In this document: one piece after another, positions 2,968-60,640 of the stretch
Position numbering within the stretch: the stretch's first letter is position 1
Layout: the number at the start of each line of letters is the position of its first letter
Assembly: GCA_961205875.1 (NCBI GenBank)
Contig: OY540819.1
Location: 8,124,501-8,188,500, forward strand
Length of the DNA: 64,000 bases
DNA from: Sialis fuliginosa
Taxonomy: Eukaryota; Arthropoda; Insecta; Megaloptera; Sialidae
Reading direction: 5' to 3'
Program-made: the position numbers and the translations under genes
The notes under the pieces: model-generated
Database searches by the model: none
What the model saw: the letters and a program-made list of their open reading frames with translations, nothing else
What the model was told of the DNA's origin: nothing

Positions 2968-3433
2968 GCATATTTCCAAAAGCCCGTCCAGTACAGAGCA
3001 ACGGATGAAAATTGTGCTCTGTAAAGCACTGGAGTTTGGAAATCGTTTCATTGATATTTGCACTCCAAACCCCAGTCGAGTACAGAGCATACTCAGACTA
3101 GAACTATGTGTGGAATCTCGATGTGGGGCTTATAAACTATAGTTTAAAAAATATGCGTTACTTATTATTATATCAAATTAAAACATTTTCGCGTCAGCGA
3201 AAATGTAGTATTCTTATATGCTATTTTATTATGTAATAAATTTTATGGTTGATACGGAGAATAGGGGTACAAGCTTTCACTACTGTCTAACATTAGCCTC
3301 AGTCTGAGTATGCTCTGTACTCGACTGGGGTTTGGAGTGCAAATATCAATGAAACGATTTCCAAACTCCAGTGCTTTACAGAGCACAATTTTCGTCCGTT
3401 GCTCTGTACTGGACGGGCTTTTGGAAATATGCA
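2968..3433. repeat. Foldback pair: 133-bp inverted arms around a 201-bp centre
   Basis: Arm 2968-3099 and arm 3301-3433 are near-perfect reverse complements, with only about one mismatch seen. Each arm is itself two hairpins: one built on CAGTACAGAGCA with TGCTCTG, and one on CTGGAGTTTGG with CCAAACCCCAG. The two short frames here with the same peptide start (minus 2878-3090, plus 3310-3618) are a by-product of the inverted repeat, not evidence of a protein. Confidence 0.8.
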
Positions 3434-4325: not shown

Positions 4326-4453
4326 CTATAGTGTGAATGCTTTCATTGTTTATTGTTTATTTATATTTGATTGGAGCGAGACCGGACCGGGACCAACACG
4401 ATAGTGAGGATCGGCCCTAAATCGAATTATTACCGAAGACATTGTCTGACATA

Positions 4454-4785
4454 TGTCCGGTATTATAAAGGACCTAGCAAATTTGTTAGCTAGCTAGCAC
4501 TTTCAACTGAGATATCAAACTTATATGACAGTTCTTTTGGAGTTTGTCGAAGACTTTGACAAGTTTCGCGGACGCGTTGTAGGTAAATACAAACGGTATT
4601 AAAACAGTGGTGATGTTATGAAAATTATTTTGTACGGTTATAGATGCCAACTGTGTTACAATTAGTTGAAGTGTCACTGCTCTAAAATCCATAACTAATC
4701 CATAGATACTAGTACAGAATTAATACCCCATTTGAAAGTAATTGCTAGCTAGCAAATTTTGTTAGCTCCTTTATAATACCGGACA
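4454..4785. mobile_element. 332-bp MITE, TIR TGTCCGGTATTATAAAGG, copy 1
   Basis: Long imperfect terminal inverted repeats (about 45 bp) start TGTCCGGTATTATAAAGG on the left and end CCTTTATAATACCGGACA on the right. Copy 2 at 35907-36238 has exactly the same length. The flanks are ATA and TAA here, and TAA and TAA in copy 2, so a 3-bp TAA target is likely. A 68-codon minus-strand frame (4486-4692) is present in both copies, but no known protein resembles it. Confidence 0.85.
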
Positions 4786-7700
4786 TAAAAGGATGTGATA
4801 ATAAATAAAAATACATTAGTAGGATGAGGATGAGAATATAATAACTGAATTTAAAATGAAAGAGAATTAACACCAATAATTTTAATTTATCATAATTTTA
4901 TAATTCTTATTCTTAAAATGTGCCTTGATATATTTCAGTCCGAGGAGTAGGGAATCCCCCACCAACCAAATTAATTAATAAAAATTAATGTAAACAATTG
5001 TATTTTTCTTTACTCGTATCAAAAACGTTGATATCTCGAAATGAGCTTTGTGTTGGTTGATTCATTAGTGCATAACAGTGTTCGCCAATGATCCCTATAC
5101 ATGAATACATTTAATTAACACAGATAAATATTGCATTCACATATAAATGTTATATTTTTGAAGGTCGATATTTTATTAATATTAATTAATAATAATACAT
5201 AAGTTATTTATTTTTGACTTCTGGGCGTGAGCTACGTTAGTGTACGAATATTAATTCGAACTCTACGCACGTACTGATGCAAATTGTTGAGTTACGAATG
5301 CGAAATTTAGCGACTTATAAAATTTTAATTAGGACTGTACACTGAGATTGGTATTTTGGATGAGATGAGTCCAAGACAATCCTATGATCCTGGGTTGAGA
5401 AAAAAAACTCATTGATTAAAATTTCTAATTAATGGCCTCTGTACACCACCCAATTTCACATCCAATCTGCAGGAGCAATCTGTCGAAACTATAATTTGTA
5501 TCATTTTTCCCTCCTCGACAGCCATGGAAGTGGTTATGTAACATTTCCCAAAGCTTTGAAAGACTGGACTGCTCCCTACATTATTGCAAGATCGCGCGAG
5601 AATCTTCAATGTTTATAAAATGTGCGTGGAATATTTTTTTGTCGTTTTTAACCATAAGTGTTGAAATATTATCATTTATAATTAAAAATATCAATTCTAA
5701 ATCATTTTTAATTTAATAATTACCTATTTAATAGTTCTTATCTAACAATAGGTAGGTTAATAGGTACATTTTATACCGGTGATAAGTTTTTATATTTTAT
5801 AAATCAATATAAAAAATATATACGAAAATAGTCTGAAATATGTATATTTTATAAATCATAAAATTGAGAAACATTTCTTATTTATATAAATTAAATAATG
5901 ATTGTTAATTAAACTATTTTTAAATTATTCTGCAAATCCAAAATAATCAATATTACGTTAACTATACATTGTTAAGTTTAATATTAGTTATTTGTTGTCT
6001 ATAGTCTATACTATGATACTTATAATTATTTTCCAGAATTATCTATATAATTATATATTTTGATAACAAATAAATGACGTGTACTGGTGTACTACACATG
6101 CACCAAAATCATGCACAATTATAAATAAAATATGTATCTAAGTATTACTTACTCATTCCAGCATCGAAATCCAATGCAGCTATTGTTATATTCAAAAACT
6201 TGATTGTTGCGAGTAAACCAATATGAATATATCAACAAACGAGTTTAACGATAACAACTTTATTAATTTCAATAGTTGTAGTTTTAATTGTTATTGTCAA
6301 CAAATTATTATAAATTATAAACTAATTATAAGTAAATGAAACATTTAAATTAAGCACAGTGATACAAAATAAACGCTTTTTAATGGTAGAAATTGTGACG
6401 AACTAATTACGTTTATCTTGATGTGAAAGTGATCAAGTACTGACTTGTATAATACAGCAAACTTCAGGTAACTTATCTATTTTAAAGATAATTATTAATC
6501 AGCTAATTAATCACTCATTTTTGTTTGTGTATTTTTATCTCTATTATGATGAAATGTCATTTTACATAATTTGCAATGCACTTTAGGGTTGATGTTAAAA
6601 ATTGTGCGAGTATATTAAAATTACATTGCTGCATAATTGTTTTTTAATTGTTTAATGATATTTTACAGAGATAAACGAGGAACACTGTATTTTATATCTT
6701 TCTGTTTACATAAATCGATTATTGCAAATTTATTAATCAATGAATACTTTGTGTTTTAAATAAACAATAATATATATTTTGGTAAAAATTATAAATAGTA
6801 TGTACTAATATATTGTTTAATGGAATGCCAAAAGATTGAAAAAACCTATAAAAAATATTGAAAAGAAAATACGTCATTACAATTTTTTTTAATAATTTTA
6901 TTATGAATCAAAGACCAAAGTAATGATTTCATAAAAAAGTCTTAACATTAATATATATATAATATAAATTTTTAAACATTAATATTCATAATATAAAAAT
7001 ACTTCAATTATGAAAAATATTTGCACTTATTTTTCTTTTTAATAATTAACTTTTTTTGATTATATTTATATTACAAAATGTCTTAATTTTACAAATTAAT
7101 AAAAGGTATATAAAAACAATTCATATAATAAAACTTAATTAGAATTTAAATATTATTTATTTAATAATTATATGTCTAAATCAGTGACTTGCAAAGGTGG
7201 TGCCAAAAAATATATTTAAATTGTAACACATTCAGCAAAAAATTACAATTGAAAAAAATACATATATAAAAAATATTAAATTTTGTATCATAAATTGAGA
7301 AATACTGATCTAAACAAATAAAATGTAAATAAATATAGTAAATATTCCATTTAAAATCATCCTTTGAGTTAAGTTGTGGCCACTATACAGCTTATATAAG
7401 AAGTATTCTATAAGCAGACTGCGTGGCCAAGCTTTAATCTAAATATCTTGTATCTTGGTCATATAAATTCTTTAATTTAATTATTTTTTTGTAAACAAAC
7501 TTTTTTTAAATATTATATTTTTTAATGCTCCTATATTTCCGAACATGTAAACAATACGAGGCATAGGTATAATATTAAAATATACATATATATGTATTTT
7601 AAACATTAAATTACTTTAGTTTCCTTGGGAAAAAGGCACATTTAGTATTTGATTTGTATTTATTATGTTTTAATATTATATATAAACATTATTTTTTTTA

Positions 7701-11058: not shown

Positions 11059-13192
11059 CTTACGAGAACTAGCACCTTTGAAATATCAGGAAAACTAACA
11101 TGTTTAACATATTTTAAAGAAAATTAACATGTTTAAAATATGCAGTGAGTTATCAAAAATGCTAGATAACGTGGTGAGAAATAAAATGTGCTAATTTTCA
11201 TGGCAAAATATCATACATGCTAGTTTTCGTAAGAAATAAAACGTGCTAGTCTTAATAACGCAATTGAAATAATGTAATATTGTACTTGAAATATATAAAT
11301 TTTGTGAATTAAGTGTAAAAAAATGTAAATCAAGTAATTTGTCATAGTTAATAAACATTAATTAAAACAATTTTGTATTTTTATTTCATTAATCTTAATA
11401 TAAGAATATTTTATTTATTCCTTAATAATCCGTGATGTTTTATTGTGTCTGACATAATTTGTGCATTTAATTTTTTGTACAATAAAAAATATTGTTTAAC
11501 ATAATAAAACATCATGGGTTGTATAGGTTAGGTTTAATTTCAATAAACAGAAAACATATGTGGATTTCAAATATTCGTATACTGGTACATGATTGGTTCA
11601 GAGTATATATATTCCCAACCAATCAGAACCGTCGCACCTCTTAATGTCAAACGATGTTTCCAGTAAAATAACGTTGAGTGTCGCTTCTGTATATTTATTA
11701 TTCTGTGTTGTTAACTTCAAAAGTTTGAATCTGATATTGTTGCGTCATTCAAAGAATACCTTGAAATTATCAATAATTGTTTAATATTATTGTTACCAGA
11801 GCCCCCTCATGGGGGGCTGACTGGAGTCTAATCCTAGGGTCATGATTATTATTTTATTTATTCATTATTATTTGTAAAAAAAGTTCAATGAAAACCGTCA
11901 TATTACTTACACAACATTTTAGTTGTGCCAAAATTCAAAATAGTCTATTATAAAAACATCCACTAATTTATATAGGTACATACCTACATCTAATTTGTTT
12001 ATTTTTAAATCTTAATTATAATATTATTATTTATTTATTTTACATAATAAACTGCAAATACATCCACCGAGTATGTACCTACATTTTTTATTTTGCTAGA
12101 AATTCCGGTCTACATTAATAATTCTTTTATATGACATGTGTTTTTATGAACATTCCAATTTTCAAAATCGTGATATACATTTTACTCGGTATTTGGATCA
12201 CAAACATTGCATTCCATAATATTTTTTACACATGATCATGGGCGGTTTCTTGGTAGATACAAATATAATTTAGCGAAATCAATTTACCTGTTTCTAGAAT
12301 TCTTGCGATTATTCATATAATTATATTGAATACTAAAGCATCATCTTAATACTATTAAATTAACGTAATTGTATCGTTTTCCGCGTATTTTGTATTAAAA
12401 AAATATAATAAATGTTATTATAAAAAAGGTGTTCTCTGATTTGGAATTATTTAGTGTTAAATTGTTGTTTTATAAAGAAAAAAATTAAAATTTAGTTTTT
12501 TAGGAAAGGGCTAACTGCATATTGTTATAAACAAAACATATACTTTCAAAGTAATCAAATTATATTAAATATAAGGTAAACAAAAACATCTGGACGATTA
12601 CGTTAGTAATATTTGATTTTTATTAACTCAGTGGCGTAGTAATTATTTGGGGGGGGGGGGGGGGTAAATACATATATTTTTTTTCTAATTCTAATTTTTA
12701 TTCTAATTATCGTGGACTATGTGTAATAAATATTAAGTGGGAGCCGAAAAAAATACACAACGGAAAACAGAAACCTACGAAACCTGAATGTGCTTTCTGC
12801 CACAGAATAATACACTTTTGGCGCCTTTTAGGGATTTCAATACACTGGGTATGTGTCATTGAATGCACATGTGATATGTTTGTGGTATGTGACGATTGCT
12901 AAAAATGTCTTGTAAAGTTACCACGTGTTCAATAAATAATATAAATTAATGACAAATACTTATTTTGTGTGACTGTGTATAGTTGAGTACATTATCAAAT
13001 AAAAAGTTTATTCGTATTCAAAAGAGTGTGCTTCTGTATACACAAATACAAATTCAATTTCATAAGATCAAATCAATAATATAATATATAAGTATCTAAT
13101 AAAATAAATAAATTATAACAATATGAATATAATTAATAACCAATAAGATATTATATATACAAACAAGTCTTCCAGAAATAATAAAAGAAAAT
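11059..13192. other. AT-rich spacer with a small hairpin and a 16-G run
   Basis: No gene is supported. A 16-bp inverted repeat (TGATGTTTTATTGTGT at 11433, mate at 11499-11514, one mismatch) encloses about 50 bases. A run of 16 G is at 12649-12664 after GTGGCGTAGTAATTATTT, a phrase typical of degenerate insect repeats. The right end is the promoter and 5' UTR side of the zinc-finger gene at 13193; CTTCCAG near 13170 could be a splice acceptor. Confidence 0.45.
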
Positions 13193-14587
13193 ATGAATAA
13201 CTATGATAAAGATCATTTAGAAAACAAATATATAACTGTAACTGATTCTTTATTTATATCTGATGATAGATACATAAAAAAAGAAATAAATGAAGATATT
13301 ACAGTACCTGTTGAGAACACTACAAAATACAATAGTGTCTCTTTTGAACGATACAATAAAAAGTTGTTAAATAAAATCACAGTGAAAGATATTGATAAAT
13401 ATTTGAATTGTAAAGTGACTTTAGAGAAGATAGATTTTCAACAATATGAAAATACATGTTTTGTTTGTAAATTATGCCTTAAATTATTTACATTAAAGGA
13501 AAGCTTAAATAATCACTATAAAACAAATCATAATATCAAACGCAAATCTTCACGTAAGAAATATGCAAAATCTGTTGACAGTAATGATAAGAACTTATGT
13601 CGTATTTGTAATAAAACATTTAAAGTGAAAAATAATTTGAAACGCCATTTATTAATTCATATTGGAACTAAGTATAAATGTGATATATGTAGTAAATTTT
13701 TTTCAACTAAAGGAAATGTAAAATATCACAAAATATTGGTGCATAGTAAAGAAAGACCGTTCGAATGTCACATTTGTAAAAAGAGATTTAAATTTACATT
13801 TATATTAAAAAATCATATAAAAATACACTCCTTCGATAAACGATATGAATGTAAAATTTGCAATAAAAGATTTAATCAAGAAAAAAAACTTAAAGAACAT
13901 AAATTAATACATACAGAAAATCGTCCATTTAAATGTAATGAATGTGGAATGGGTTTTTTGAAAAATTCTCGATTGAAAACCCATCTTGCTACTCATACGG
14001 ATAGAGAAAAAGTCGAATGCGACGTATGTAAAAAATACTTTGTAAATAAATATAGTTTGAAAAAACATCAAGTAATTCATACAGTTAAAGACATTTTTAA
14101 GTGCGAAATCTGTGGAAAAACAACTAACAGAAAGGATTCTTTGAAACTACATATGAGAGTACATATAAATGATAAACCTTTTAAATGTGATATTTGCAAT
14201 ACAGGTTTTAAATACAGGAGTTACGTAAAAACACACAAATTGTATCATCATTCGGAAGAGAGGCCTCATAAATGTGAGATATGTGATAAAAATTTTAAAA
14301 CAAAAAGCATCTTAAGTGATCATAAGTTTACACATGTTGAAGAAAGCCGTTTTAAATGTGATATTTGTATTGAACAGTACCGACATATAAGTAATTTAAA
14401 ACTTCACAAATTAAAACATAATAGTATATTTAGATGTCGTAAATGTAAAAAGAATTTTAGTAAAGAAAGTCAATTAGAAACACATAATTGTCCTGCAACT
14501 GATGCATTCGAGTGTAAAATATGTAATAAAAACTACTCATCAAAAATATTTTTGATGAAGCATATGAGAAATCATTTAAGAGAGTAA
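13193..14587 (+). CDS. Multi-C2H2 zinc-finger protein, 13 fingers
   Basis: This is a single open exon of 464 aa. The first 90 or so residues have no finger and contain a KKEIN motif that resembles a SUMO acceptor. Twelve regular C2H2 fingers and one altered finger then run almost to the C-terminus, many joined by TGEKP-like linkers in diverged form (for example HTENRPF, HINDKPF, HSEERPH). The twelfth finger (FRCRKC then THNC) has Cys in place of the last His, giving a C2HC finger. There is no ZAD or KRAB domain. The role is presumably a nuclear nucleic-acid-binding regulator. The coding sequence is very AT-rich like its surroundings. An upstream non-coding exon is possible but not needed to complete the frame. 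Confidence 0.88.
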   Translation: MNNYDKDHLENKYITVTDSLFISDDRYIKKEINEDITVPVENTTKYNSVSFERYNKKLLNKITVKDIDKYLNCKVTLEKIDFQQYENTCFVCKLCLKLFTLKESLNNHYKTNHNIKRKSSRKKYAKSVDSNDKNLCRICNKTFKVKNNLKRHLLIHIGTKYKCDICSKFFSTKGNVKYHKILVHSKERPFECHICKKRFKFTFILKNHIKIHSFDKRYECKICNKRFNQEKKLKEHKLIHTENRPFKCNECGMGFLKNSRLKTHLATHTDREKVECDVCKKYFVNKYSLKKHQVIHTVKDIFKCEICGKTTNRKDSLKLHMRVHINDKPFKCDICNTGFKYRSYVKTHKLYHHSEERPHKCEICDKNFKTKSILSDHKFTHVEESRFKCDICIEQYRHISNLKLHKLKHNSIFRCRKCKKNFSKESQLETHNCPATDAFECKICNKNYSSKIFLMKHMRNHLRE

Positions 14588-14974
14588 TTATATTGATTTT
14601 ACTAAGAATATGCAGTATATCTCAAAACATTTTTTTATTTAAAATAGTTATATGAAACTTTCAGGGAATATATGAATCTCAACAATGAACAATTTTATAG
14701 TTATCAGATTTTTTACTCTTGCTTATACATATCAGTGTTCAAAATTGGAATTTAAATTGAAAAATATATCTTGTTACATTATTTTTAAAAAAATCAGTCT
14801 TGTAATTAATTAAATTTAAAATCCACTATACTTTTCAACAGATATCAAAACAATTTCTTTATTTTATCTTAAGTTTATAAATTATTGTTGTAATTTATAT
14901 TTTTAAGAGGACAGATTAGGGGCTCAAGATTTGCACCTACGCCTAAAACTATCATTTTTAAGGTGAAAGAATGT
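14588..14974. other. 3' flank of the 13-finger gene
   Basis: AT-rich probable 3' UTR and spacer. I see no frame or structured element before the repeat that starts near 14975. Confidence 0.4.
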
Positions 14975-15521
14975 TTTGTTTAGTAAGAGGAAGGTACAAC
15001 TCAATTTTTATTCAACCGATATTATTGAAATTTGGTCGGATGGTTGGGTCAGGTTTGAGGACGGTCCCATTTCAAAATCATCAAAATCGTGTGTAAGGGG
15101 GAGGGGTGACATTCCAAAATATTTATTTTTTCAAGATATCTCAAGAACTATACATTTAACGTGAAAATTTTATAGAATCTTTTTTGTAGAGCATTAAATT
15201 TCCTATAATATGGGTCTACAACCTTTGTTGTAAAATATTCCCTTACAAAGATTTATCTCAATTTATTTTAAAAATTCGTGTTTTGTTTTTCTGAATTGAC
15301 AAGTCAAAATATTAAAAATATACGAAAAAAGAATCAGGTGTGTCTTGAGAAAAATTTCGAACTAATATTTTTTAGTAAAATTGTATAAAAATTAAATGGG
15401 TAACCAATTCCAGGCAATTTATCTCAACATTATCGGTTTTTATTTAAATTGTTCAATAATTAACTACTTTTGAATTTAGCACGAGGAAGCACTGTGCATT
15501 TACTTGGCAGATGTTTTTTTT
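14975..15521 (+). repeat. Interspersed repeat family R, left copy
   Basis: It shares its body with the inverted copy at 16683-17395 and the same-orientation copy at 58871-59357. The order of blocks is CCGATATTATTGAAA, then the C-rich AAGGGGGAGGGGTGACA, TTTTTTCAAGATATCTCAAG, TTGTTGTAAAATATTCCCTT, and finally GCACGAGGAAG with GTGCATTTACTTGGCAGATG. All three copies lose similarity just after the last block, which marks one end of the element. The plus-strand frame 14976-15164 is not coding. Confidence 0.8.
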
Positions 15522-16682
15522 ATTATTCACTTGTATAACCTACTGTGTCTTCTGGCCAGGAATTATTTTAAGGACATTTTATAAGTTCTAATTTAGAACT
15601 GCACAATTAGAACTTTTGAGACAAATCAAAATTTTAAAAATTCTCAATAATAATAAAAGAGCTTTTTTTCGTAAGTGCAATTGAATGACCTTATTTATCC
15701 TTGAGTACTGCACAAAATTACTTTTCAATTTTAGAACTGTACAAACCCCTGATTCTGGTTATAACATTAATTAGTAGATTTTAGAATTAAGAAGAAATTA
15801 TCATTAGCAAAACAGCAGGGGATTTACAAAAACATTTGCATATTCTTATTAACTAAAATAGTCCAAATTAGATCGTTAGTTATGTATGTACGTCATCAAA
15901 ATTTAACCAGTGGCATTAGAACGTTTTTACATCATGAGGGTGGGATATTTTTTAATTTCAAATGTTCCATCGCCACTTTATGATCAATTTTTATAACATA
16001 ATAATATATTATAAATACCTACATATGTATAAGCAATAATATAATTTTGATAGTTTTTAGAATTTTTATATTGATGGAACTTCAATTTAACTTAAGACCC
16101 TATAATTAATTTAGGATATATAATAATTAAATTAGAGTAGGACCGTAATAAGGAAAATGTGCAATTTATATTTTATAATAAAAATACCGACGACACGAAA
16201 ACTACTGAATCGACTTTTATGAAATTGTTAAAAAATTTATATTTTGGTTAGTCTAAAATTTCGTGTGAAAAGCAAAAAAACCATAGTGTTATTTGATTCA
16301 AAATTAAAACCAGAAGAAAATACTGAAAATAATAAATTAAAAATGGAAAAGCTCATTTAACAGCACTGTGGACATAAGCGGCAGAATCTTTATATGTATA
16401 TACATCATATGAGGGAGCAACACGAGCAAAAATGTATTATTAAAGGAGAGCGATTGCCCTCTATGCGTCCCCCGTTTCGCCGCCACTGAATTCAATATGC
16501 ATATTTTATTTTTCATTAATTTATTTCTGCAAAACAAAACAAAAAATCGCAAAATTAGGACAGTTATTATATCAATGTAGTATGTAATTTGATACAATTT
16601 AAAGCTATGTTCACACTGCAACTGATATACGGTGCTAAATATTTTCATTGTTACTAACAATAAAATAATAAAACCTCTTTCG
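15522..16682. other. Spacer between inverted repeat copies
   Basis: AT-rich, no gene. Near 16440-16490 there is a GC-richer phrase (GTCCCCCGTTTCGCCGCCACTG) typical of degraded insect repeats. The minus-strand frame 16337-16783 overlaps the repeat and is not convincing. Confidence 0.4.
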
Positions 16683-17395
16683 ACATATAAAAACATCTGC
16701 CAAGTAAATGCACAGTGCTTCCTCGTGCAAAATTCACTAAAACCGATAGTGTTCAGATAAATTGCCTGGCATTGGTTAACCATTTAATTTTTATACAAAT
16801 TTTACTAAAAAATCTTAGTTCGAATTTTTTCTTAAAACGCACCTGAATATTTTTTCATATATTTTTAATTTTTTGACAATTTCAATCTAAATCTAAATAT
16901 ATGCAAATGTCAAAATGACATTTAAAACGTCAAAGTGACATTTAAAACGTCAAAGTGACATTTAAAACGTCAAAATGACACTTAATATATCCAATCAAAT
17001 ATCAATTTAGAAAAACAAAACACGAATTTTAAAAATTAATTTAGATAAATCTTTGTAAGGGAATATTTTACAACAAACGTAGTAGACCCATATTATAGGA
17101 AATTTAATTCTCTACAAAAAATATTCTATAAAATTTTCTCGTAACATGTGTCGTTCTTGAGATATCTTGAAAAAAGAAATATTTTGGGGTGTCACCCCTC
17201 CCCCTTACACACGATTTTGATGATTTTGAAATGGGACCGTCCTCAAACCAAACCCAACCATCCGACCAAGTTTCAATAATATCGGTTCAGTGGTTCATGA
17301 GTTATGCGTGTGACAAGGATTCAGGGGACAGACGGACGGACGGACGGACGGACAGACAGACACGGAACGAAAAGTGTTTGTCTTGACGTGAAACG
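16683..17395 (-). repeat. Interspersed repeat family R, inverted copy
   Basis: Reverse complement of the 14975 copy, and the fullest version of the outer end. That end includes the phrase ATGAGTTATGCGTGTGACAA and a GACG/GACA tetranucleotide run (17327-17363). With the left copy it makes arms of 500-600 bases around 1.16 kb. Inside, replacing part of the family body, is a four-unit 20-bp tandem array at 16909-16980. Confidence 0.8.
16909..16980. repeat. 20-bp tandem repeat, about 3.6 units, each with a GTCA-AAR-TGAC core
   Basis: The unit is GTCAAARTGACATTTAAAAC. Each unit carries a palindromic GTCA/TGAC core separated by three bases, so the array is a row of evenly spaced dyads (spacing 20 bp, about two helical turns). 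It lies inside the inverted family R copy and is absent from the other two copies. Confidence 0.85.
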
Positions 17396-18319
17396 GATAA
17401 ATAAATTTAAAATTTTGAAATTGGAGAACTTTTTTTTTGTCTCAATCTGAAACGATCACATAGCTTCTCGTATCTTCGATATTGCGAGGAGCAAAAAGTA
17501 TAATTTGATAAAATGATTATTATATTTATATTATAATGTTAATTTTAAATTTAGTAATTATAATTGTTATTGTTTCCAAGGGTGGTGGTAATTTTTTTTT
17601 CGAATATTTTTAACCAAATCAATTTTATTTAATGATAAGTTTACGTTTATTGTTATTTTAATTTGTTTACAAATATTATTATATAATTTGATAAAACGAA
17701 AAAAAAATGTCAACAATCAATAATCAACAATGAAACAAATACAAAATCGCTAAGCGCGCTTGTGTCAATTAATAAATTCAACAATTGAATGACCGACAGT
17801 TTCAAAAATACTGCACCGGTGTGAACGCGGTCTAACAGATCCGGGTAGAGCAGAAACAAAGCCGTGGGACCCGGACCTCGACCACCAGGTAAAAGCGGTG
17901 GAGATGATAAAGAAAATATCAACCCGTCCCTGACCAGTAATAACTCGACTTTCATTCGAACATGGTCCATTGTTGAAGAAAACGCGTTCTGTTTATAAAC
18001 GTGCTCGATATCATCTTCATACTTTACCGCGTGATTGATTATTGTTTACGTTTTGTGTGTTGTATTTTTTTGTGATGATTTTTGTTTCGAGACTAATTAT
18101 TTTCTTTTTTTGAAATAAAATAATTGGAATGTTATTGTTGTAAATATCAAGATAATTAGTTTAATTGTTGATTTTATTTTAATAAAAAAACAACGCAATA
18201 AAAAGTGGTTTTCTGTTGTTGATCTTTTTTTACAGTCCATGATTAATTATCGTGTTGAAGAATTTAAAGTATAACAACAAATAATGAATAAGTCGAGTAT
18301 TCATTAACACGAAAAACAA
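17396..18319. other. Upstream region of the chitin-binding gene
   Basis: Presumed promoter and 5' UTR side of the small signal-peptide exon at 18320. A GC-richer block at 17800-17970 contains an 86-codon minus-strand frame with no recognisable motif, which I do not call a gene. Otherwise AT-rich. Confidence 0.4.
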
Positions 18320-18353
18320 ATGAAAATGTTGTTAGTTGCTGTTTTTCTCATAG
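18320..18353 (+). CDS. Signal-peptide exon (exon 1) of the chitin-binding protein
   Basis: ATG and ten further codons give MKMLLVAVFLI plus one base, then a consensus donor (GTAAGA). Joined in phase 1 to exon 2 at 27758, the N-terminus becomes MKMLLVAVFLIGVQQIHTSD. That is a typical short signal peptide in exactly the position needed for the secreted domain array, and exon 2 has no start codon of its own. The join skips 9.4 kb of repeat-rich intron. The evidence is phase match plus biological sense; a transcript would settle it. Confidence 0.65.
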
Positions 18354-20211
18354 GTAAGACAATAATATGTAATTATCAATGTTAATGAACATTAAAATAA
18401 TCACATTAAAGTTGTTACGTAACTGTGTTCTTAAAAAAAACTCATCAAAATATATGTATATTTCTTTTAAATTAATAATAATTAGGTATATAGAAAAATA
18501 TCCTTGGATTTCCTGTTTGAGTGTTTAATTATTCAGAAAAACTGTGTCCTGTTTTCAGGGCCGGATCAATAATTTTATTGATATTAAGTAATATTAAATA
18601 ATTTGTGTATAGCTCAATTCGAGGTGATAGAGCTAATTACTATAAGCGCCGATTTCACAGGAGTATATAAGTATATCCCCATGCTAACTTAATAAATTAT
18701 AAAATTAATCGTAGCAGGGAAGGGTGATTTTATTTAAAATTTTGAATATTTTAATGGGGCGTAATACACTCATGGTGAGGAAGGTTAAGGTTAAGAATTT
18801 GGCAATATACATAATTTACCCCCTCCCCCGTTTTTTTTTTTGGTGCGTCGCTGCTATGATGGTACCCTTGCTTGTGAATAGCCACCCTAAAAAAATCTGG
18901 TTACGCCACTGGGTCGAGCGGAAATTTTAATTTTTATAAGTATTTTTTCTTGCTGTTTTTTTGGTTTAAAAAAATTATATCGTTAATTTTTTTTTATTAT
19001 TAGAGTAAAGAAATGTATTATTTATGGTCGACTTGATGAACTGATCGTCTCAGAAGGAGGGTCTAGGGCGTCAGACTTGCAAAGGCCGGCTCTGCATCCT
19101 TCACATCTGCTTAAGCTGGTCCTGTTAGTACGAATTTGCGTACGCTGAAGATCAAACTATCCAATATTTACATACAAAAAATTACCATTCAATTAATGCA
19201 AAGACTTTTACTTTCCAACAAAAAATAAATTCACGTTTGGTCATTTAAAATTCCCATAACATCACGTACATATGCAAAAACAAAATACACATCATTCCAA
19301 AATAAACATACATCGAGATACCTGAGTGTATCAGTCAGGGCCGAATTAACACACAATAAGTAAAAAATTGTAGATCAAATATCAAACATCAAAACAGTTT
19401 ATAAAACTGAAACTCGATCAACGTTTTCATCAAGCAAAATCTTTAAATATTTCTATACAAATACATTGATTCTTAAATACGTTAATGACAGTGGTGGAGT
19501 AAGGTACGTGGTGGGGGGGATGAGGTAGAATAGCTTGATGAGGATTAAAAAGTGACATGAACATTAAAAAAAGGTATTTACAAACTGCAGGAGGGCGCAC
19601 AAATAATATTTAGAGGGCAAATTGAACTGAAAACGAAAAAATATCATTATTACACCAACGACGTGGGGGGGGGAGTTATAACTAACATTCCGCCCCGAAT
19701 ATCAACCTTCCTTAGTTCGCCACGAAATTTTAAAGGAGAAATTGGATCCAAATTGAAAGATTCATATTTTTGTGTACCGGAGTTCTACAAGGATTTGAGT
19801 GCGTTTCCGAAATTTGCCATCAGTCATTAACTTTTAATATTTTTACTGAGTTTATGATGACTCTTACCAAAATTACAATGTTTATAACATACAATATCGT
19901 CGTTCATTCCTGAGGATGTATCAATCAATTGAGGGGTTTGCAGCAACAACGAGTTAACTCCATTTTTAGGCCAAACAGAGTTAACAACTGTTTATTGGGG
20001 GAAAAAAATTATTATTTCGTTTGGTTCAACAAAGTTACCTACCGTTGATAGTTCTCAAGGTATCCGTTAGAATTCATTCGCTTGGGTCAAAATGGAGTTA
20101 ACTCCAGAAGCTAACTCTTTTTTTTGGGCTTAGAATTTAGTTAGTATACTCGTTACTGTGTTCTTTCTTGAAATAAACCAATTTTCTTGAAAATTGTTCT
20201 TATTCAATGCT

Positions 20212-23200
20212 GGGTCATTCCATATAAAATCATCAAGGTGCTGAAGTTGCACCATTTTTAATTTTGATGAAAGTTTAATCAGTTGTTATTATACTTATTA
20301 GATAGCAGAAACTGTACTTAGAAAAATTTTAATGGCCATAATTCGGGGGTGGTGACCGTTTTACCCTCTTAAGATATGAAGATTTCGTCGATTTTCAACG
20401 TTTTTTCAACTCGCTATAGCACGCGTTCTAATAAAGCAATTACAACGAGCTTAATGTCATTTGAAAGACTAAAGAATCTAGTTTCAATTGATCTAGCACA
20501 ATTTAAAGTTTAAATTATTTTTTTTTTAGATAGAGGCTTTTCAAATTTATTAATAAAATTGTCATTTTTTCTATTTTTCGAAATTTATTGTGGCTCTAAG
20601 GTTAAACTGAGAAAGCTATAATTATGTGTAAGTTATGTTCATTTATAGTACTCAGTACCCACAAAAAATCAGCTTGATTGATGCACATCTTTTATTAAAA
20701 AAATTTAGTTAAATATCGCAAAAATCACGAAAACACCAAAATCAGCTGTTTTCGAAGCAAAAAAAAGTTATGTGGGGGACGAGATAAAATTCTAAATTTT
20801 TTTTTACAAATGCTCTAAATAGTTATCTTTGAAGGCCTTATAGATTCGTTTTGTTATTTTCATTTTTATAGCAATCAGAATTTTTTTTTAAATTTAAAAA
20901 AATACAAAAACTTCAAAAACGGTTATTTTTAAACATAATACAAAAATATGTTGGGTACGAGATAGAATTCTGAATTTTTTTTTACAAATGCTCTAAATAG
21001 TTATCTTTGAAGGTCTTAATGATTCGGTTTGTTATTTTCATTTTTATAGCAACCAGAATTTTTTATTTAAATTTAAAAAAATACGAAAACTTCAAAAACG
21101 GTTATTTTTTAAACAATACAAAAATATGTTGGGCACGAGATAGAATTCTGAATTTTTTTTTTACAAATGCTCTAAATAGTTATCTTTGATAGCCTTATAG
21201 ATTCGTTTTGTTATTTTCATTTTTATAGCAACCAGAATTTTTTTTTGAATTTAAAAAAATACGAAAACTTTAAAAACGGTTATTTTTAAACATAATACAA
21301 AAATATGTTGGGCACGAGATAGAATTCTGAATTTTTTTTTACAAATGCTCTAAATAGTTATCTTTGAAGGCCTTATAGATTCGTTTTGTTATTTTCATTT
21401 TTATAGCAACCAGAATTTTTTTTTAAATTTAAAAAAATTCGAAAACTTCAAAAACGGTTATTTTTAAACATAATACAAAAATATGTTGGGTACGAGATAG
21501 AATTCTGAATTTTTTTTTACAAATGCTTTTAATAGTTATCTTTGATGGCCTTATAGATTCGTTATGTTATTTTCATTTTTATAGCAACTAGAATTTTTTT
21601 TTTAATTTTAAAAAATACGAAAACTTTAAAAACGGTTATTTTTAAACATAATACAAAAATATGTTGGGCACGAGATAGAATTCTGAATTTTTTTTTACAA
21701 ATGCTCTAAATAGTTATCTTTGAAGGCCTTATAGATTCGTTTTGTTATTTTCATTTTTATAGCAACCAGAATTTTTTTTTAAATTTAAAAAAATTCGAAA
21801 ACTTCAAAAACGGTTATTTTTAAACATAATACAAAAATATGTTGGGTACGAGATAGAATTCTGAATTTTTTTTTACAATTGCTCTAAATAGTTATCTTTG
21901 ATGGCCTTATAGATTCGTTTTGTTATTTTCATTTTTATAGCAACTAGAATTTTTTTTTAAATTTAAAAAAATACGAAAACTTTAAAAACGGTTATTTTTA
22001 AACATAATACAAAAATATGTTGGGCACGAGATAGAATTCTGAATTTTTTTTTACAAATGCTCTAAATAGTTATCTTTGAAGGCCTTATAGATTCGTTTTG
22101 TTATTTTCATTTTTATAGCAACCAGAATTTTTTATTTAAATTTAAAAAAATACGAAAACTTCAAAAACAGCTATTTTTTAAACAATACAAAAATATGTTG
22201 GGTACGAGATAGAATTCTGAATTTTTTTTTACAAATGCTCTAAATAGTTATCTTTGAATGCCTTATAGATTCGTTTTGTTATTTTCATTTTTATAGCAAC
22301 CAGAATTTTTTTTTTTAATTTAAACAAATACGAAAACTTCGAAAACGGCTATTTTTAAACAATACAAAAATATGTTGGGCACGAGATAGAATTTTGAATT
22401 TTTTTTTATAATTGCTTTAAGTAATTAACTTTAAAGGCCAATTGGCTTTTTCTTGTTATTTTCATTTTTCTAGTCACCAGACTTTTTTTAGATCCTTCAA
22501 AAATTCTGGTTGCTATAAAAATGAAAATAACAAAACGAATCTATAAGGCTATCAAAGATAACTATTTAGAGCATTTGTAAAAAAAAAATTCAGAATTCTA
22601 TCTCGTGCCCAACATATTTTTGTATTGTTTAAAAAATAACCGTTTTTGAAGTTTTCGTATTTTTTTAAATTTAAATAAAAAATTCTGGTTGCTATAAAAA
22701 TGAAAATAACAAATCGAATCATTAAGGCCTTCAAAGATAACTATTTAGAGCATTTGTAAAAAAAAATTCAGAATTCTATCTCGTACCCAACATATTTTTG
22801 TATTATGTTTAAAAATAACCGTTTTTGATGTTTTCGTATTTTTTTAAATTTAAAAAAAAAATCTGGTTGCTATATAAATGAAAATAACAAAACGAATCTA
22901 TAAGGCCTTCAAAGATAACTATTTAGAGCATTTGTAAAAAAAAATTCAGAATTTTATCTCGTCCCCCACATAACTTTTTTTTGCTTCGAAAACAGCTGAT
23001 TTTGGTGTTTTCGTGATTTTTGCGATATTTAACTAAATTTTTTTAATAAAAGATGTGCATCAATCAAGCTGATTTTTTGTGGGTACTGAGTACTATAAAT
23101 GAACATAACTTACACATAATTATAGCTTTCTCAGTTTAACCTTAGAGCCACAATAAATTTCGAAAAATAGAAAAAATGACAATTTTATTAATAAATTTGA

Positions 23201-23538
23201 AAAGCCTCTATCTACAAAAAAAATAATTTAAACTTTAAATTGTGCTAGATCAATTGAAACTAGATTCTTTAGTCTTTTAAATGACATTAAGCTCGTTGTA
23301 ATTGCTTTATTAAAACGTGTGCTATAGCGAGTTGAAAAAACGTTGAAAATCGACGAAATCTTCATATCTTAAGAGGGTAAAACGGTCACCACCCCCGAAC
23401 TATGGCCATTAAAATTTTTCTAAGTACAGTTTCTGCTATCTAATAAGTATAATAACAACTGATTAAACTTTCATCAAAATTAAAAATGGTGCAACTTCTA
23501 TATTTTAATAAATTTGATGATTATAAATGGAATGACTC
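20212..23538. mobile_element. Foldback element, 3.3 kb, with about 1-kb inverted arms and an internal 178-bp satellite
   Basis: The ends read RGTCATTCCAT on both sides. The left arm (20212 to about 21240) and right arm (about 22500 to 23538) are close reverse complements over about 1 kb. This includes a unique outer part of roughly 600 bases and about three satellite units per arm. Direct satellite units fill the centre. Long terminal inverted repeats with internal tandem repeats are the classic build of foldback (FB-type) elements. No transposase is visible. The 60-codon frames at 21007-21189 (+) and 22552-22734 (-) are mirror images of one another made by the palindrome. Confidence 0.85.
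20790..22985. repeat. 178-bp tandem satellite: about nine direct units, then about three inverted units
   Basis: The phrase TTATCTTTGA recurs at 20823, 21001, 21180, 21358, 21536, 21714, 21892, 22070 and 22248, a spacing of 178 or 179 bases throughout. A decayed unit follows near 22425. At about 22500 the orientation flips, and reverse-complement units continue to about 22985. Each unit contains TTTTCATTTTTATAGCAACC, a poly-T run, an AAACGGTTATTTTTAAAC box and GAGATAGAATTCTGAA. Confidence 0.9.
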
Positions 23539-25649
23539 TGCTTCCTTACTTTAAAAAGAAAATAATTTTCAAGTATTTGGGCCAGAAAGGAGTTAACTCC
23601 AGAATAAAATTGACACTATAATTGTGAATTTGACGAATTTCTCAATGGAATTTGGCCAAAACATGAAGTGGTAGGTGACAAATAATTGGACGAAGACAAA
23701 GGCGATTTAAATACATTCTACATTTTTTAAATAGTTTTTTTCTATTTTCCCACAAATTATAAAAACTGGAGTTAACTCCTTGTTGCTGCATACCCTTCAA
23801 TTGTATTTTTAAATAGCACAGAATAAAATGAAATTGAAGTATCTTTAATCCGGCACTGATTCAAAGTCAATGCGATCAAGATACCTATGTGTATCAGTCT
23901 TCTTGAGTCCACTGTTTACTAGATCTCATGCACTTGACACAGCTGCAGTGGCGCGGCGCGGCGGCGATTGTAGTAACTATAGTGTGTAAGGTCGACCACG
24001 TGACAGTCGCAGCCGCCTCGGATCGTTTCTTGTTGTGGCGTTGAAGTCACCCGGATTTCACATTCACCCAAACACACACACACATACGTATTGAGAGTGT
24101 GTAATTTACATAATAGAGCAATAAACACATTACGTATGGTCACTTATACACAATTTATATAATTTTTTAAATATTGAAGATGGTATCATGGAGAGAATTA
24201 TGGCTAATATTTTACATAGGGCTAGTTTTTTATTCAATTTTTATTTCGTTAATTTAAATATTTTTTGTATTGCTGCAAAAATGACGGTGTTGTTTATAAA
24301 TAGACCTCTGTGATTTTTATTTTCGGCTTTTTATGTTATTTATATATTTATTTTGTTGTCGTTTAAGATCTTTTATATTCCATTGATGTACCGAAATATA
24401 TTGTATTTACTAAATGTAATTTAGTAAAGGTGATTAATTTTTGTACGTACTCAATTTTGAATAATCTAAAAGTAAAATGTTTAAAAATGAAATTGGAAAA
24501 TGTGGCAATAGTAGGCATAGCCCCCACATCCTATCATAGGCCCCCAAGCTAGAATTGTTGGCGAGTCTCCTAAGGAATTTTTTCGGAAAAAAATCTCGGG
24601 TAAGTTTGTATAATCTTTCTTTCGGCCATTCGAATAAAATTTTACGTAAATATCATTCACCGACTTTTTTTGCTCGTCGCGCCGAATCCCCTTTAGCCCC
24701 AAGTCTTGAAAGGGCCATGAGTACTGTTAATCCGTCATTTTGGGCAGGCAGCAATTTTAGGAGGAATTTCGTAGAGGGGTCGGTTGTGAGTTTAACACTG
24801 AGTTTTCGGAACTGCATGGAAACGAATAAATTTTGTAAAGGGCATTAGTAGCTTCTTGACGTAAAAAAATGAATAAATAGTTTGAGGCAAAATAATTAGT
24901 ATTTTCAGTCGCTAACGATATCTGAAAAAAAAATTATGGTGCTTAGCTTCCTCGTGGTGGCCCCCCTAGCTCCGGGCCACCAAATTAACCCCTCATTCCA
25001 GTCATGGCTATGCCACTGACTTATAAATGTTTGTAAATACTGTAATCCATTATTAATTTGAGGGAACTGAAGATTTCCCCTAATTTTATAAATTATATAC
25101 TTATAATTTTTATATATTGATATAAAAACACACCATACCTACGTTTGTTTCGATTTTTTTAAATTCATATGTACACTTAAATGCTACAACTTTATTTTTT
25201 GTTAACTAAACATTCTCCAGTTCAAAATATTTCTACTACCTATAATAAATACATTTATTTATGTGTAGGTGCGTGATTAGAAAGCAAAAATCGCGATAAT
25301 TTTATTATCGGATTGGCCTGATTGTTAATATAATTTGTTCATTGAAATACCTACCACAAAATCTACAATAAATAATGATCTTAAACGTCCTCCAATTTAA
25401 TATGTGTTTTTATTTATAATAATAATAAATAACCGCGCGGCTAGACCGAAGTAATCTATTACCTAAATCCGTCGTACTTTGGCATAATATATAAATATAT
25501 ATAGCGAGCGAATCGGGGAGAGCGTTTTTTAGCCAATGGTCATGTTGCGGGACCCCTAGTACAGCACTGTCTAAATTATTTAGTAAAACTATGTGTAGTC
25601 AAGTTAGGTATTTTTTATGTGGCTTAAAAAACACAACAATATATATTCT

Positions 25650-25913
25650 CAGGGTGTCCACTATATAGAAAGTCAGGGAAGCCTAAAATGGTCAAGGAAT
25701 TTCATTAAAATTTATTTTTTTTAGAAAGTCAGGGAAAAAAAGAAAAATGTCATTGAATTCAAAGCTTGAAAGTAAGTAACAAATGTAAAATTTTCAAGTT
25801 ATGACCAAAAAAAAAAAGGTCTTCAATCTTTCAATAGCCCCCGAGTCAGGGAATTTTGAATCTGTGGTCAGGGAAAGTCAGGGAATTTTATTTCCAAAAA
25901 CCAGTGGACACTG
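25650..25913. mobile_element. Decayed second copy of the CAGGGTGTCCACT MITE
   Basis: It starts CAGGGTGTCCACT and keeps the GTCAGGGAA motifs, the AAGTTATGACC block and a right end AGTGGACAC with the last bases altered. It is about 264 bp, shorter than the 328-bp copy at 3998. No target duplication is discernible. Confidence 0.8.
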
Positions 25914-26752
25914 TAACATAAGAAGTAATTTTAGATTATTGATAACTTAATTGTTAATAGGTGACACGCGTACTAAGGGTATAATTGAAGACTTTTTTTT
26001 CGTTGTCATATCGATTTTGATGCTCCCTAAAATTGACTTGCGTTCTCCTGAAGTTTCTTAAAACCTTTTTTGTCCTCATGCTTTTCTACCTCATTTTAGT
26101 GCCTCCCTCGACATCAGCGGGGGTCGATTTCACTAACCCCTATCTACGCCTCTGCCCATAATAATATAGTTATCTAAAATGATGCTATCCTCCACAATTG
26201 ATACTTAGTTTTTTAAGACAAGAGTATTTTTTTAATATTATAAATTACGAAAAAATTTGGTCTAAAAAATGTAAAATTACTTCCGAGATATATTACTGAA
26301 GTGATACCCCTCCCCTTCTATATATAAATAGATACCGACTATATATCGATTTGAAAATCCGTTATTGTTCAACTTCCTGAAAATCTATTAATCCTTTTCC
26401 TGACTTAATAGGTACGCCGGCCTTGAATAAATCTACGTCCAGTAGGTACTTCCGATAATGGTTGGAGGGCATAATATTTGCTCAATGTTGTTCCTCGATC
26501 TGATTTAAATAATATTAATGATACAGCGTGCCGTTAATTTTTACGTTAAATTTATATATGTCTATGCCATGGCCATATCAAGGGGAAACGAAGAGAATGC
26601 AGAATTGTATAGGAGGTGTGTTCACAAAACCCATATATTATTATTATATAGTTATAGGTAGTACATGCTGATTTACATAATATTTACATCGAATATATGG
26701 ATCATCTAGCTATTTATTTTAGTTCCTCACAGTGGCGTCGCTAAGGGGTGAC

Positions 26753-26777
26753 ATTATACGGGTGACACCCGTATAAT
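26753..26777. repeat. Perfect 25-bp palindrome in a duplicated GGGTGACAC region
   Basis: Twelve-base arms (ATTATACGGGTG and CACCCGTATAAT) flank a single A. A similar GGGGTGACACCCG phrase recurs at about 26953, and each is followed by a related AATAAARCCTATTTAC block, so about 200 bases here look duplicated. Confidence 0.75.
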
Positions 26778-27757
26778 ATGTTAAAAAATAAAGCCTATTT
26801 ACCTTATATTTTGGTTATTTTAAGATTTCAGAGAGTAATATGTGTAAAAAAATTTTTTTTGGTCATTGAAAGTTTATAGGGGGTGAGATAATCGATAACC
26901 ATCGAATTTATTAAAAATATATATATATTTCTCCTGTCGTTAAAAAATCACAGGGGTGACACCCGCCTAATGTATACAAAATAAAACCTATTTACTTTTT
27001 TTGGCGTTGGGGGTGGGGGTGACACTCACGATTTTCGCCTCGGGTGTCATCCCTCATAATATACATTGAATAATTATTAACATTAGAGAAACTTCGAACT
27101 GTAATTTTTTAAAATAAGTAAATTATGACTAGTTCTCTAAATCCGGTTCTGTATACAAAAACCACTAAAATTCTCACCAGGGAATCGAGGCCCCCTATAC
27201 TGTAAATATTTATTACGCATTAATTAAATGATAATTATTGAATAATTTAAGTACGTAAACATTGTTTTTCTTGTATAATTTTATATACCTAAATATATAT
27301 TTAATGCGTGAATTAAAAAAAAAAAATTACAATTATAAATACGTTCTGAACGTAAAATAAGATTTGTTTATTTAATTAACACCCGGATATTATTAATTAA
27401 CTGTACATAAAACGCTTATCATCTTTATAAAATATTAAATATTAATATACGAGTACCAGTTTATTGACCTAAAATTTTGTATTATACATAACTTCATTAC
27501 TATTTTATATAGGTTTATAATATAGGGCACTTTACTCGAGTAAAGATCTTTACTACAAGGACATTATATTATGTTGTGTATAATTAATAATATGTAATAC
27601 AATAATTATAATATCATAAATAGGATGAAAATATATTTTGTTTAACTAATTTAAATAATAATCGAAGAATGACAATTGTTGAAATTTCAACAATCAAAAT
27701 TTTTTAAATTCAAATATAACCGCAACAATGCATTAAATTTAAAATAATTTATTACAG

Positions 27758-30004
27758 GAGTTCAACAAATTCACACATCTGATTCAGAAGGAGCTGAATT
27801 ATTTAAAGCATGTTTAAATACATCAGATGGAGTGAATACAGAACCCGGTACAAATTGTCAGAAATATTACGAATGTCAAAACAACACCTTGGTGAATCGA
27901 TATTCTTGCGAAGATGAATACATTTTTGATGTAACCGCGAAAAAATGCGTTCCCGAAAATGAAGCAACTTGTGTTGATATCGACTGTACTGAAGATAGTA
28001 ATCCATTCAAGTTTTTTACTATTCCTGGAACAAAATGTAGAATGTATTACAGGTACATGAGTATTATTATTTTCTATATTAAAAAAATACAAAATAATAT
28101 ACTACGTCCACGTGGTAACGACAGATGGCAGTACATAGAAATTTGATTGTTGAAATAATTTGAAAAAAAAATACAGATTTAAAATTAATATTATTTATTA
28201 TTCTGTGCCTATACCTTAACTACAATAATTATTATTTTATAGAAATTTTCGATTTTATTTTTATAGATGTGTAAACAACTACAAATCCATCTACAGCTGC
28301 CCAAAACCTGACCAGATATTCAATTATGAACTACAAACGTGCGTCAAAAACGGCTACTGTTACGAACCAGTTTGCACAGGGAGAGTAAATGGGTATCATC
28401 CAGACACAACGCAACGATGCCAAAGAAGTTTTTGGTGCTACGGTGGAAAAATTACCATCGTTAGAAACTGCCCAAGCGATCAAGTCTACTCAAGCACCAT
28501 TAAAAGCTGTGTTGGAGTTCCGTATGCAATGGAAACCTGTGAAAGCCCTCAAAAGACATCGATAGCATTCCCACCGATAGAACAAAACGGTCATAAATGT
28601 TCTAAACTTGAAGATGGCCTTTATTCTGAACCAAATACATTATGTAAAGAATACTTTATATGTAAAAATGGTCTGAATCTTGGAACACTATCTTGTAATG
28701 AAGGTTATAATTTTGATGGAAAAAATTGTGTACTTGAAAGCCTTATACCATGTAAAGATGTATGTTTTTCGTTACAAGATGGGATTCACGTAGATTTATA
28801 TTCAGGGTGTAAAAAGTTTGTTATATGTACTAACGGACGTTTGATTTGGAATGGATCATGTCCACATGGAACAGTTCACAACGGCTTAGACTGCGTAGAC
28901 AGAAGTTTATATAAATGTCTGATAGAAAAGCCAATTGATACGAACATATGCAGAAACAAAAAAGACGGGTATCACAGAAACTATGGCAACTGTAAGGAAT
29001 ATTTTTACTGTGCTAACGGAGAGATAGTTTTGAAAGGAACGTGTCCAGAGAAACAAGTTTACAATGGTGAAACTTGTGTAGAAAAATCATGGTTCTTTTG
29101 CGAAGGACCTGAACCGTGGGTTGGATGTTTAGTTCAAAATGGATTATATCAAGATAAGAGTTCACGTTGCAGGAATTATTATTATTGCAAAAATGGAAAT
29201 CGGACTAAATATTCATGTCCACCGACTGAAGTTTTTAACGGGGAGATGTGTGTACCGATTTATTTATATGAATGTCCTTTGAAAGAACATAATATATGTG
29301 AAGGAAAAACAGACGGTTATTACAGTGATAATTCTTCAAGTTGTAGATCGTATTACTTTTGTTCTAACGGTCACAAGAATATGTACATATGTCCGGAAAA
29401 TAAAGTGTTTAATGGTGAAAAATGTGTTAGTTCTGATCAGTACCAGTGTTTGAACATGTCACCAGATTGTTTAAATAAATCTAATGGATATCATTTTGAT
29501 TTAACGTCTAATTGTAAAAAGTATTTCTACTGTTTGAATAATGAAAAAATAACATCGTTTTCTTGTCCAAATAAACTTATATTCAATGGACTGTCATGTG
29601 TTGAACCAAAACTATTCACCTGTCCTGTTAAAATCAATGGTGATTTCTGTCTTCATAAAACAGACGGATATTACGTACAACCGAAAACTAAATGCCAGAA
29701 ATATATTCATTGTAAAAATAAAACTATTTCAGACTACATTAGTTGTCCAGAAGACAAAATATTTGACGGAATAAGTTCATGTATTTCAAATAAATGTAAA
29801 AAAAATGATTCAATGATTTGTCAAAAAGATGGTTTGTATGTTGATTACAAATCATCTTGTAAAGCTTATTTTAGTTGTATAAATGGGAAATTAACTACAC
29901 TACAGTGTCCTGAAGGGAATCTGTTTAACGGACAAGTATGTGTTGAAGAAAAAAAGTATTATTGTCCAGAAATTTGCAGTAAGAGAGACTATTGTGATAC
30001 ATAA
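27758..30004 (+). CDS. Secreted multi-domain chitin-binding (peritrophin-A / CBM14) protein, exons 2 and 3
   Basis: Exon 2 is 27758-28052 and exon 3 is 28267-30004, with phase 2 at the join. With the signal-peptide exon at 18320-18353 the protein is 688 aa. I count eleven chitin-binding type 2 domains, each with the six-cysteine pattern and the aromatic core C.KYF.C or C..YY.C. The core is followed by CP...FNG..CV in domains five to nine and eleven, and the first three domains are more diverged. There is no membrane anchor or catalytic domain, so the protein should be secreted and bind and cross-link chitin in cuticle, tracheal lining or a gut matrix. The domain-only layout resembles peritrophins and obstructor-like proteins. 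A possible poly-A signal AATAAA is at 30191-30196. Confidence 0.9.
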
Positions 30005-35526: not shown

Positions 35527-39621
<4,095 letters not shown>

Positions 39622-58870: not shown

Positions 58871-59357
58871 AAACAAACACTTTTCGTTCCGTGTCTGTCT
58901 GTCCCCTGATTCCTTGTCACATGCATAACTCATAAACCACTCAACCGATGTTAATGAAACTTGGTAAGATGGTTAGGTCTGGCTTAATGCCGGTCCTATT
59001 TCAAAATCGTGTACAAGGGGAAGGGGAAATATCCCAAAATATTTATTTTTTCAAGATATCTCAAGAACAACACTTGTTACGTGAAAATTTTATTTTATTA
59101 TTATTATTATTTCCTTTAATATAGGTTTACAACGTTTGTTGTAAAATATTCCCTTATAAAGATTTAACTCAATTTGCTTTAAAAAATCTTGTTTTGTTTT
59201 TTTAAACGGGTTTTTTTAAGTAAAATTGCATAAAATTAAATGGTTAATAAGTTTATCTTAACATTTTAACGTTTTTTATTTAAATTGTTCAATAATTAAC
59301 TACTTTTTTGTGAATTTAGCACGAGGAAGTACAGTGCATTTACTTAGCGGATGTTTT
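58871..59357 (+). repeat. Interspersed repeat family R, third copy
   Basis: Same orientation as the copy at 14975 and about 42-44 kb from the other two. It has the outer phrase ACACTTTTCGTTCCGTGTCT, then CCGATGTTAATGAAACTTGG, TTTTTTCAAGATATCTCAAG, TTGTTGTAAAATATTCCCTT and the shared end GCACGAGGAAGTACAGTGCA up to GCGGATG. An internal portion is deleted relative to the other copies (near 59210). Confidence 0.8.
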
Positions 59358-60233: not shown

Positions 60234-60270
60234 GGGAGCGTTCACGTCTGACCAAAAAACGGAACAACGA

Positions 60271-60558
60271 GCTTTGATTGGTTGATTCTAGGAATTTCTG
60301 GTAGAATGTACCAGAAATTAAAAGAATGTCATTTTTTAAGCGTGTAAGGAAGTGAAAAAGAAGTAAGTAGAAAGAGATAGAAACTAGTGTTCTGGCAGAA
60401 CGCTCAACATGAAGTGAACATAAAAGTTCTTTGGTTAGTCACTAGTTTCTGTCTTTCTAGTTACTTCTTTCTCACTCCCTTACACGCTTAAAAAAATGAC
60501 ATTCTTTTAATTTCTGGTACATTCCACCAGAAATTCCTTGAATCAACCAATCAAAGCA
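60271..60558. repeat. Palindrome with 118-bp arms and a 52-bp loop
   Basis: The arm from 60271 to ACTAGT at 60388 is mirrored by the arm from ACTAGT at 60441 to 60558, with a few mismatches. Each arm contains a smaller perfect hairpin (AATTTCTGGTA, mate TACCAGAAATT). It lies just inside the left end of the 60234-61601 element. Confidence 0.85.
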
Positions 60559-60640
60559 CGTTGCAGTGCCAGCCTTAGCAAATCTGGCGCCCTCTCTCCC
60601 TCTAAAAAAATGTTAAAAAATCACCGAAAATGTCAATTTA

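Follow-up and report, generated by a model that had tools for sequence, protein, structure and literature searches.

The window, meaning the whole 64,000-base stretch of DNA analysed here, has a G+C content of 29.5% and contains zero N bases. Domain matches, sought in 10 stretches drawn from its 159 frames, include zinc-finger proteins (one with zf-AD), peritrophin-A, alanyl-tRNA synthetase, an Obg GTPase, a kinesin-associated protein, a protein kinase and WD40 proteins, and by its sequence this gene set looks animal; the DNA is taken to be that of an insect. Several repeats are scattered through the window: a palindromic element at 60265-60563, with 84% identity to its own reverse complement, which adjoins a 161-bp tandem array at 60635-61169 (TRF, 3.3 copies); a self-complementary segment of ~465 bp at 2968-3432 (79% identity to its own reverse complement); an inverted repeat pair at 15014-15299 and 17002-17287 (93% identity), with an extra diverged copy near 58941-59201; and a 336-bp direct repeat pair at 4453-4788 and 35906-36241 (93% identity), perhaps a dispersed repeat. 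The locus of primary interest comprises a gene with peritrophin-A (CBM_14) domains and two nested elements predicted to lie within its first intron, with the following features.

18320..18353, + strand: predicted exon 1 of the CBM_14 gene, 34 nt, MKMLLVAVFLI-G, signal peptide
18354..27757, + strand: predicted intron 1, 9404 bp, containing both nested elements
19926..19931, no strand: CAATTG, left copy of the candidate target-site duplication flanking the outer element; the right copy is at 23798-23803
19932..20211, + strand: outer element, left part, 280 bp; terminal inverted repeat (TIR) ARGGGTWTGCAGCAACAA; GAGTTAACTC palindromes at 19951 and 20095
20208..20211, no strand: candidate 4-bp target-site duplication of the foldback, TGCT; right copy at 23539-23542
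20212..20777, + strand: left arm of the foldback, outer flanking domain, starting GGGTCATTCCAT
20600..20777, + strand: probable degraded unit F0, one period outside F1; 104/185 columns
20778..22379, + strand: nine full 178-bp units, F1-F9; mutual identity 91-100%
22380..22489, + strand: degraded tenth unit F10, at the palindrome centre; 83-87 of 107-108 columns against full units
22499..22963, - strand: right-arm units R3 (109 bp, truncated), R2 and R1, the mirror partners of F3, F2 and F1
22964..23538, - strand: right arm of the foldback, outer flanking domain, its end on the - strand being GAGTCATTCCAT
23539..23797, - strand: outer element, right part, 259 bp; GAGTTAACTC at 23590 and 23769
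27758..30004, + strand: CBM_14 gene from exon 2 onward, several peritrophin-A domains

Matches to CBM_14 occur at 27757-28050 (E 1.6e-08) and at 28256-30004 (E 8.5e-59, with eight stretches), and from exon 2 onward the gene seems to contain at least one additional intron. Two first-exon candidates passed the filter on the + strand of 12000-27758, and the one chosen, at 18320-18353, has the higher donor score (6.5 versus 4.7) and is in the correct phase for the reading MKMLLVAVFLIGVQQIHTSDSEG. From this predicted exon follows the predicted intron of 18354-27757 around both elements. An earlier note on this DNA had described a foldback, nested and with a tandem array inside it, within an intron of this gene; the sequence backs that arrangement, with the intron itself hanging on the predicted 34-nt exon. 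For the host gene the inner element would probably amount to neutral intron ballast. The predicted intron is otherwise mostly AT-rich; beyond the outer element but close to it, a short G+C-rich stretch at 23940-24060 may represent a promoter or a further repeat, and a second stretch of higher G+C is found at 24500-24749.

The inner element is a foldback that spans 20212-23538. Its arm repeats, at 20226-21276 and 22465-23515, are 97% complementary; local alignment gives 1021 identical columns of 1055, gap columns being counted as differences, and blastn gives 97.3% over 1038 bp. Exact inverted repetition extends to 267 bp, whereas none of 100 dinucleotide shuffles goes beyond 22. The arms of about 1 kb described in the earlier note are confirmed. 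Both structural marks of a foldback are present, namely very long terminal inverted repeats (arms of ~1.05 kb) and direct tandem repeats within the inverted repeats (178-bp units, in both arms). The ends of the element read GRGTCATTCC at 20212 and 23538: of the 26 terminal bases of GGGTCATTCC (from 20212) and GAGTCATTCC (from 23538, - strand) 22 are alike, and GRGTCATTCCAT is common to both ends, with TGCT directly outside each. When flanks were paired at random 100,000 times within the window, with boundary shifts allowed, a match of at least 4 bp arose in ~7% of cases, so that a TGCT duplication of 4 bp at these ends is suggestive only. The longest stop-to-stop frame in the element is 62 aa; hence it holds no transposase gene, and any movement would require a transposase from elsewhere. 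Rfam returned no match at gathering scores. The arm pattern had 0 matches in viral and prokaryote collections, the outer-end pattern 0 in the viral collection and 20600-21000 none among plasmids, results with little bearing on an insect genome. In the literature, GGTCATTCCA brought up no transposon title among the matches listed, and none with 'transposon' and 'inverted repeat'; no publication naming this element was among the matches listed, which is no proof that it is unpublished.

On either side of the foldback lie the two parts of a short element. Its terminal bases are alike at 27 of 30 positions with the boundaries set at 19932/23797, and the count is the same at 19931/23798. The earlier note had treated the whole as one inverted-repeat element of 3.9 kb; since the best local inverted alignment between the outer parts extends over only 48 columns, palindromic target counted in, that description gives way to a short-TIR element (280 + 259 bp) interrupted by the foldback and about 535 bp long once this insert is taken out. 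CAATTG is itself a palindrome, and the outer duplication can therefore be read as 4 bp (AATT), 6 bp or 7 bp. The 6-bp reading requires no offset, whereas the 7-bp reading (TCAATTG) requires a one-base offset of the TIRs, which leaves 10 of 30 bases in line. By chance, a duplication of at least 7 bp would be expected with a probability of 0.003 and one of at least 6 bp with 0.008, estimates that ignore the palindromic nature of the target. The motif GAGTTAACTC, its own palindrome, has four exact copies in the window, all in the outer element and two on each side; with up to one mismatch there are seven matches in the window against 1.28 expected, and none of 100 shuffles reaches seven. These copies are possible transposase binding sites. 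Self-blastn of the window (threshold E 1e-6, minimum piece 80 bp, pairs within the array excluded) revealed no second copy of the outer element or of the foldback.

Within the foldback, TRF reports a 178-bp period: 9.7 direct copies span 20769-22489, and 2.7 copies in inverted orientation span 22499-22972. With units delimited at a fixed anchor, the count of nine direct and about three inverted units in the earlier note resolves into nine full units and a degraded tenth in the left arm, and two full and one partial unit in the right. The units of the right arm match those of the left in mirror order. R3 is identical to F3 over 109 bases, after which the match is broken. Over the first 108 columns R3 and F3 show 0 differences and R2 is nearest to F2, with 2, while R1 has 4 differences from each of F1, F4, F6 and F8; over the full unit R1 has 6 from F1 and likewise from F4 and F6. 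The mirror assignment totals 6 differences, which is the minimum, attained by 4 of the 504 possible assignments. As R1 is equally near to other units by distance, its place in the mirror order depends on two shared bases, a G at column 1 and an A at column 10, found in F1 and R1 alone. The start of F3 and the start of F10 are 1246 bp apart, or 7.0 x 178, and the left arm is exactly seven units longer than the right. Among the left-arm units F4 is identical to F6, and these two alone carry a T at column 129; a T at column 100 is exclusive to F5 and F7, and F7 stands at 6 differences from each of F5, F4 and F6. The sharing between F4 and F6 and between F5 and F7 hints at a two-unit step, with few columns behind it.

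In the rest of the window the unit profile has no match up to E 1, and the unit pattern has 0 matches in the viral and prokaryote collections, which bears little on an insect genome. Whether the 178-bp unit is homologous to the 161-bp array at 60635-61169 was considered, and the idea was rejected: the match is gapped and AT-rich, 2 of 300 shuffles attain its local score of 21.5, and the profile search with the 178-bp unit returned nothing from that array.

One period outside F1, in the flanking domain of the left arm, lies what is probably a degraded unit, F0. In comparison with the unit the exact register is the best one, and 1 of 2000 shuffles does as well. Most of the match is carried by the last 63 bases (42 of 64 columns, equalled by 0 of 2000 shuffles), and nhmmer finds 20715-20777 to match the unit with E 0.003. 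The remaining controls are weaker: when local alignment is left free, the score is attained by 5 of 300 shuffles and the reverse complement of F0 itself scores 20.0 versus 22.5, and of the 12,269 positions, spaced 5 apart, at which the last 64 columns of the unit were compared with the remainder of the window, one, at 32056, exceeds F0 (20.5 versus 18.5). The case for F0 therefore rests on its exact register. Further degraded units at 20420-20600 and at 20240-20420 were tried and rejected (250 and 154 of 300 shuffles, respectively, did as well).

These data suggest that the inner element is probably a non-autonomous DNA transposon of the foldback type, inserted into an older short TIR element and shaped both by copying or conversion between its arms and by steps of whole units. 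The layout is that of a foldback, with long TIRs made up of an outer flanking domain and, towards the centre, tandem 178-bp units, and the nesting, as judged from the ends, would have arisen when this foldback entered a short non-autonomous TIR element already present in the intron. Its mobility would have depended on recognition of its ends by a transposase provided in trans. The repeat itself probably derives from part of the arm, as F0 suggests. Copying of one arm, or gene conversion from arm to arm, may then have produced the mirror match between F1-F3 and R1-R3, and because the units are matched by position, the tandem units would predate the last such event. Unequal exchange or slippage by whole units may account for the seven-unit difference, units having presumably been gained or lost in one arm after the arms were last copied or converted. 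Where unequal exchange operates, the outermost units of an array are left degraded. Taken together, the mirror order, the whole-unit difference in length and the degraded edge units fit local amplification within a foldback, of the kind published for Tetris of Drosophila virilis. On this account the locus would be a clean single-site record of tandem-repeat growth inside a foldback transposon.

Other histories deserve consideration. It is possible, if unlikely, that the outer ends and the palindrome make up a single transposon, with 19932-23797 mobile as a unit and GRGTCATTCC marking merely the stop of the inverted repeat. The agreement of the outer TIRs and the flanking CAATTG (or TCAATTG, given the one-base offset) would suit such an element, 7 bp is the length named for Galileo copies in the part of that account available (PMC3573991), and the inner TGCT duplication is weak, at a chance level of 0.07. 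The outer match, however, ends after those 48 columns of best local alignment, some 220-240 bases short of the palindrome on either side, and the palindrome has its own terminal motif with TGCT on both sides. Less probable again is the formation of the palindrome in place, through an inverted duplication (by template switch or hairpin repair) of an array already resident in the outer element and not through transposition. F10 faces R3 across an 11-bp centre at 22488-22498, both stopping near the same unit position, and a duplication of this kind would yield the observed mirror order; it does not predict the terminal motif or the flanking TGCT, and mobile foldback elements with the same internal structure are known.

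A separate question is whether the locus acts through its RNA. The predicted fold of the foldback transcript (20213-23537) has a minimum free energy (MFE) of -1773 kcal/mol, a single energy without a shuffled baseline, and contains an uninterrupted helix of 330 stacked pairs, some of which must be G-U pairs because the longest exact match between the arms is 267. The description of this hairpin as near-perfect holds for the arms of about 1 kb and fails for some seven left-hand units that have no right-arm partner of their own. In flies, as far as the available part of one account goes (PMC10317233), hairpin-RNA (hpRNA) loci consist of inverted repeats, and Dcr-2 cuts their transcripts to 21-22-nt siRNAs; one such locus has arms homologous to the BS2/Jockey transposable element. 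With these loci as precedent, and with the energy and helix given above, the foldback might be an active hairpin-RNA gene, its intronic hairpin diced to siRNAs that regulate matching transcripts or the transposon family. This we consider improbable: the great stability of the predicted hairpin is a direct consequence of the palindrome, the intron is only predicted, and the window outside the foldback holds no match to the unit profile. If small RNAs do arise from the foldback, it would count as a hairpin-RNA locus that lies in an intron and derives from a transposon. Finally, long palindromes and arrays pose difficulties for assembly, but an artefact of assembly or library, such as a chimeric palindromic read, is most improbable: between the arms 34 of 1055 columns (~3%) differ and the unit number differs by exactly seven, in a window without N, whereas a fold-back read would be expected to yield near-identical arms.

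The inner element, read as a foldback-type transposon, is by its structure an addition to the foldback class, and its design of tandem repeats within inverted repeats is already known. The FB elements of Drosophila have long inverted repeats composed mostly of tandem units, although these are far shorter, at tens of bp. Closer parallels exist. Tetris, according to the part of its description available (PMC4079207), has a flanking domain followed by ~220-bp AT-rich tandem repeats in variable number, without a conserved ORF; its repeat has a 37-bp stretch in common with the flanking domain, growth and shrinkage of the array are credited to unequal exchange, long satellite-like arrays of the repeat are shown, and a related short-TIR element, DAIBAM, exists. 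So far as that description extends, the present element resembles Tetris in its long TIRs, in the order of outer flanking domain and then tandem repeats, in the lack of a conserved ORF and in the differing number of units, and the 37-bp sharing is comparable to F0. The target-site duplications of Tetris, for which its authors suggest Mutator, are given there as 8-10 bp, a length not found here, where the best reading at the inner ends is 4 bp, and 0 of 4 published Tetris primer sequences match the window at up to three mismatches.

Galileo F of Drosophila mojavensis, a member of the P superfamily, has in the available portion of its account (PMC3573991) TIRs of up to ~1.26 kb extended by ~210-bp direct tandem repeats, unequal in number between the two TIRs (two or three copies), and a 7-bp target-site duplication. 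By that description it is like the present element in having long TIRs that contain direct tandem units, unevenly distributed between the arms, and unlike it in that nine full units occupy one arm here against two or three. Against the 7 bp of Galileo and P elements stand 4 bp at the inner ends and 4, 6 or 7 readable bp at the outer. A P-type transposase is known for Galileo (PMC3573991, in the part available); a P-type transposase with a THAP domain is absent here, no frame in the element exceeding 62 aa, but non-autonomous copies lack one in any case, and the long-TIR copies of both Tetris and Galileo F are described, in the same portions of the two papers, as having no transposase ORF (PMC4079207, PMC3573991). 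Because the duplication lengths differ and the four Tetris primers are without a match, membership in Tetris or Galileo, as these are characterised in the portions cited, is not supported. Compared on duplication length alone, the 4-bp candidate at the inner ends is like that of the Sola2 superfamily, whose target-site duplications are 4 bp, and AT-rich in the elements described, in the part of the source available (PMC3627910); Tm1 of root-knot nematodes is a further entry, placed by the title of its report in a Mutator/Foldback family (PMC3169594). It is a highly speculative idea, to which we give little credence, that a foldback of a superfamily with 4-bp duplications evolved tandem-repeat TIRs independently of the P- and Mutator-like elements, its hairpin feeding the siRNA pathway and its array seeding a satellite. 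What the locus adds to these systems is the match of units in mirror order across the arms, together with a difference in arm length of exactly seven units. If the genome holds copies of the element and satellite arrays of the 178-bp unit, this foldback would join Tetris as a supplier of building blocks for satellite DNA.
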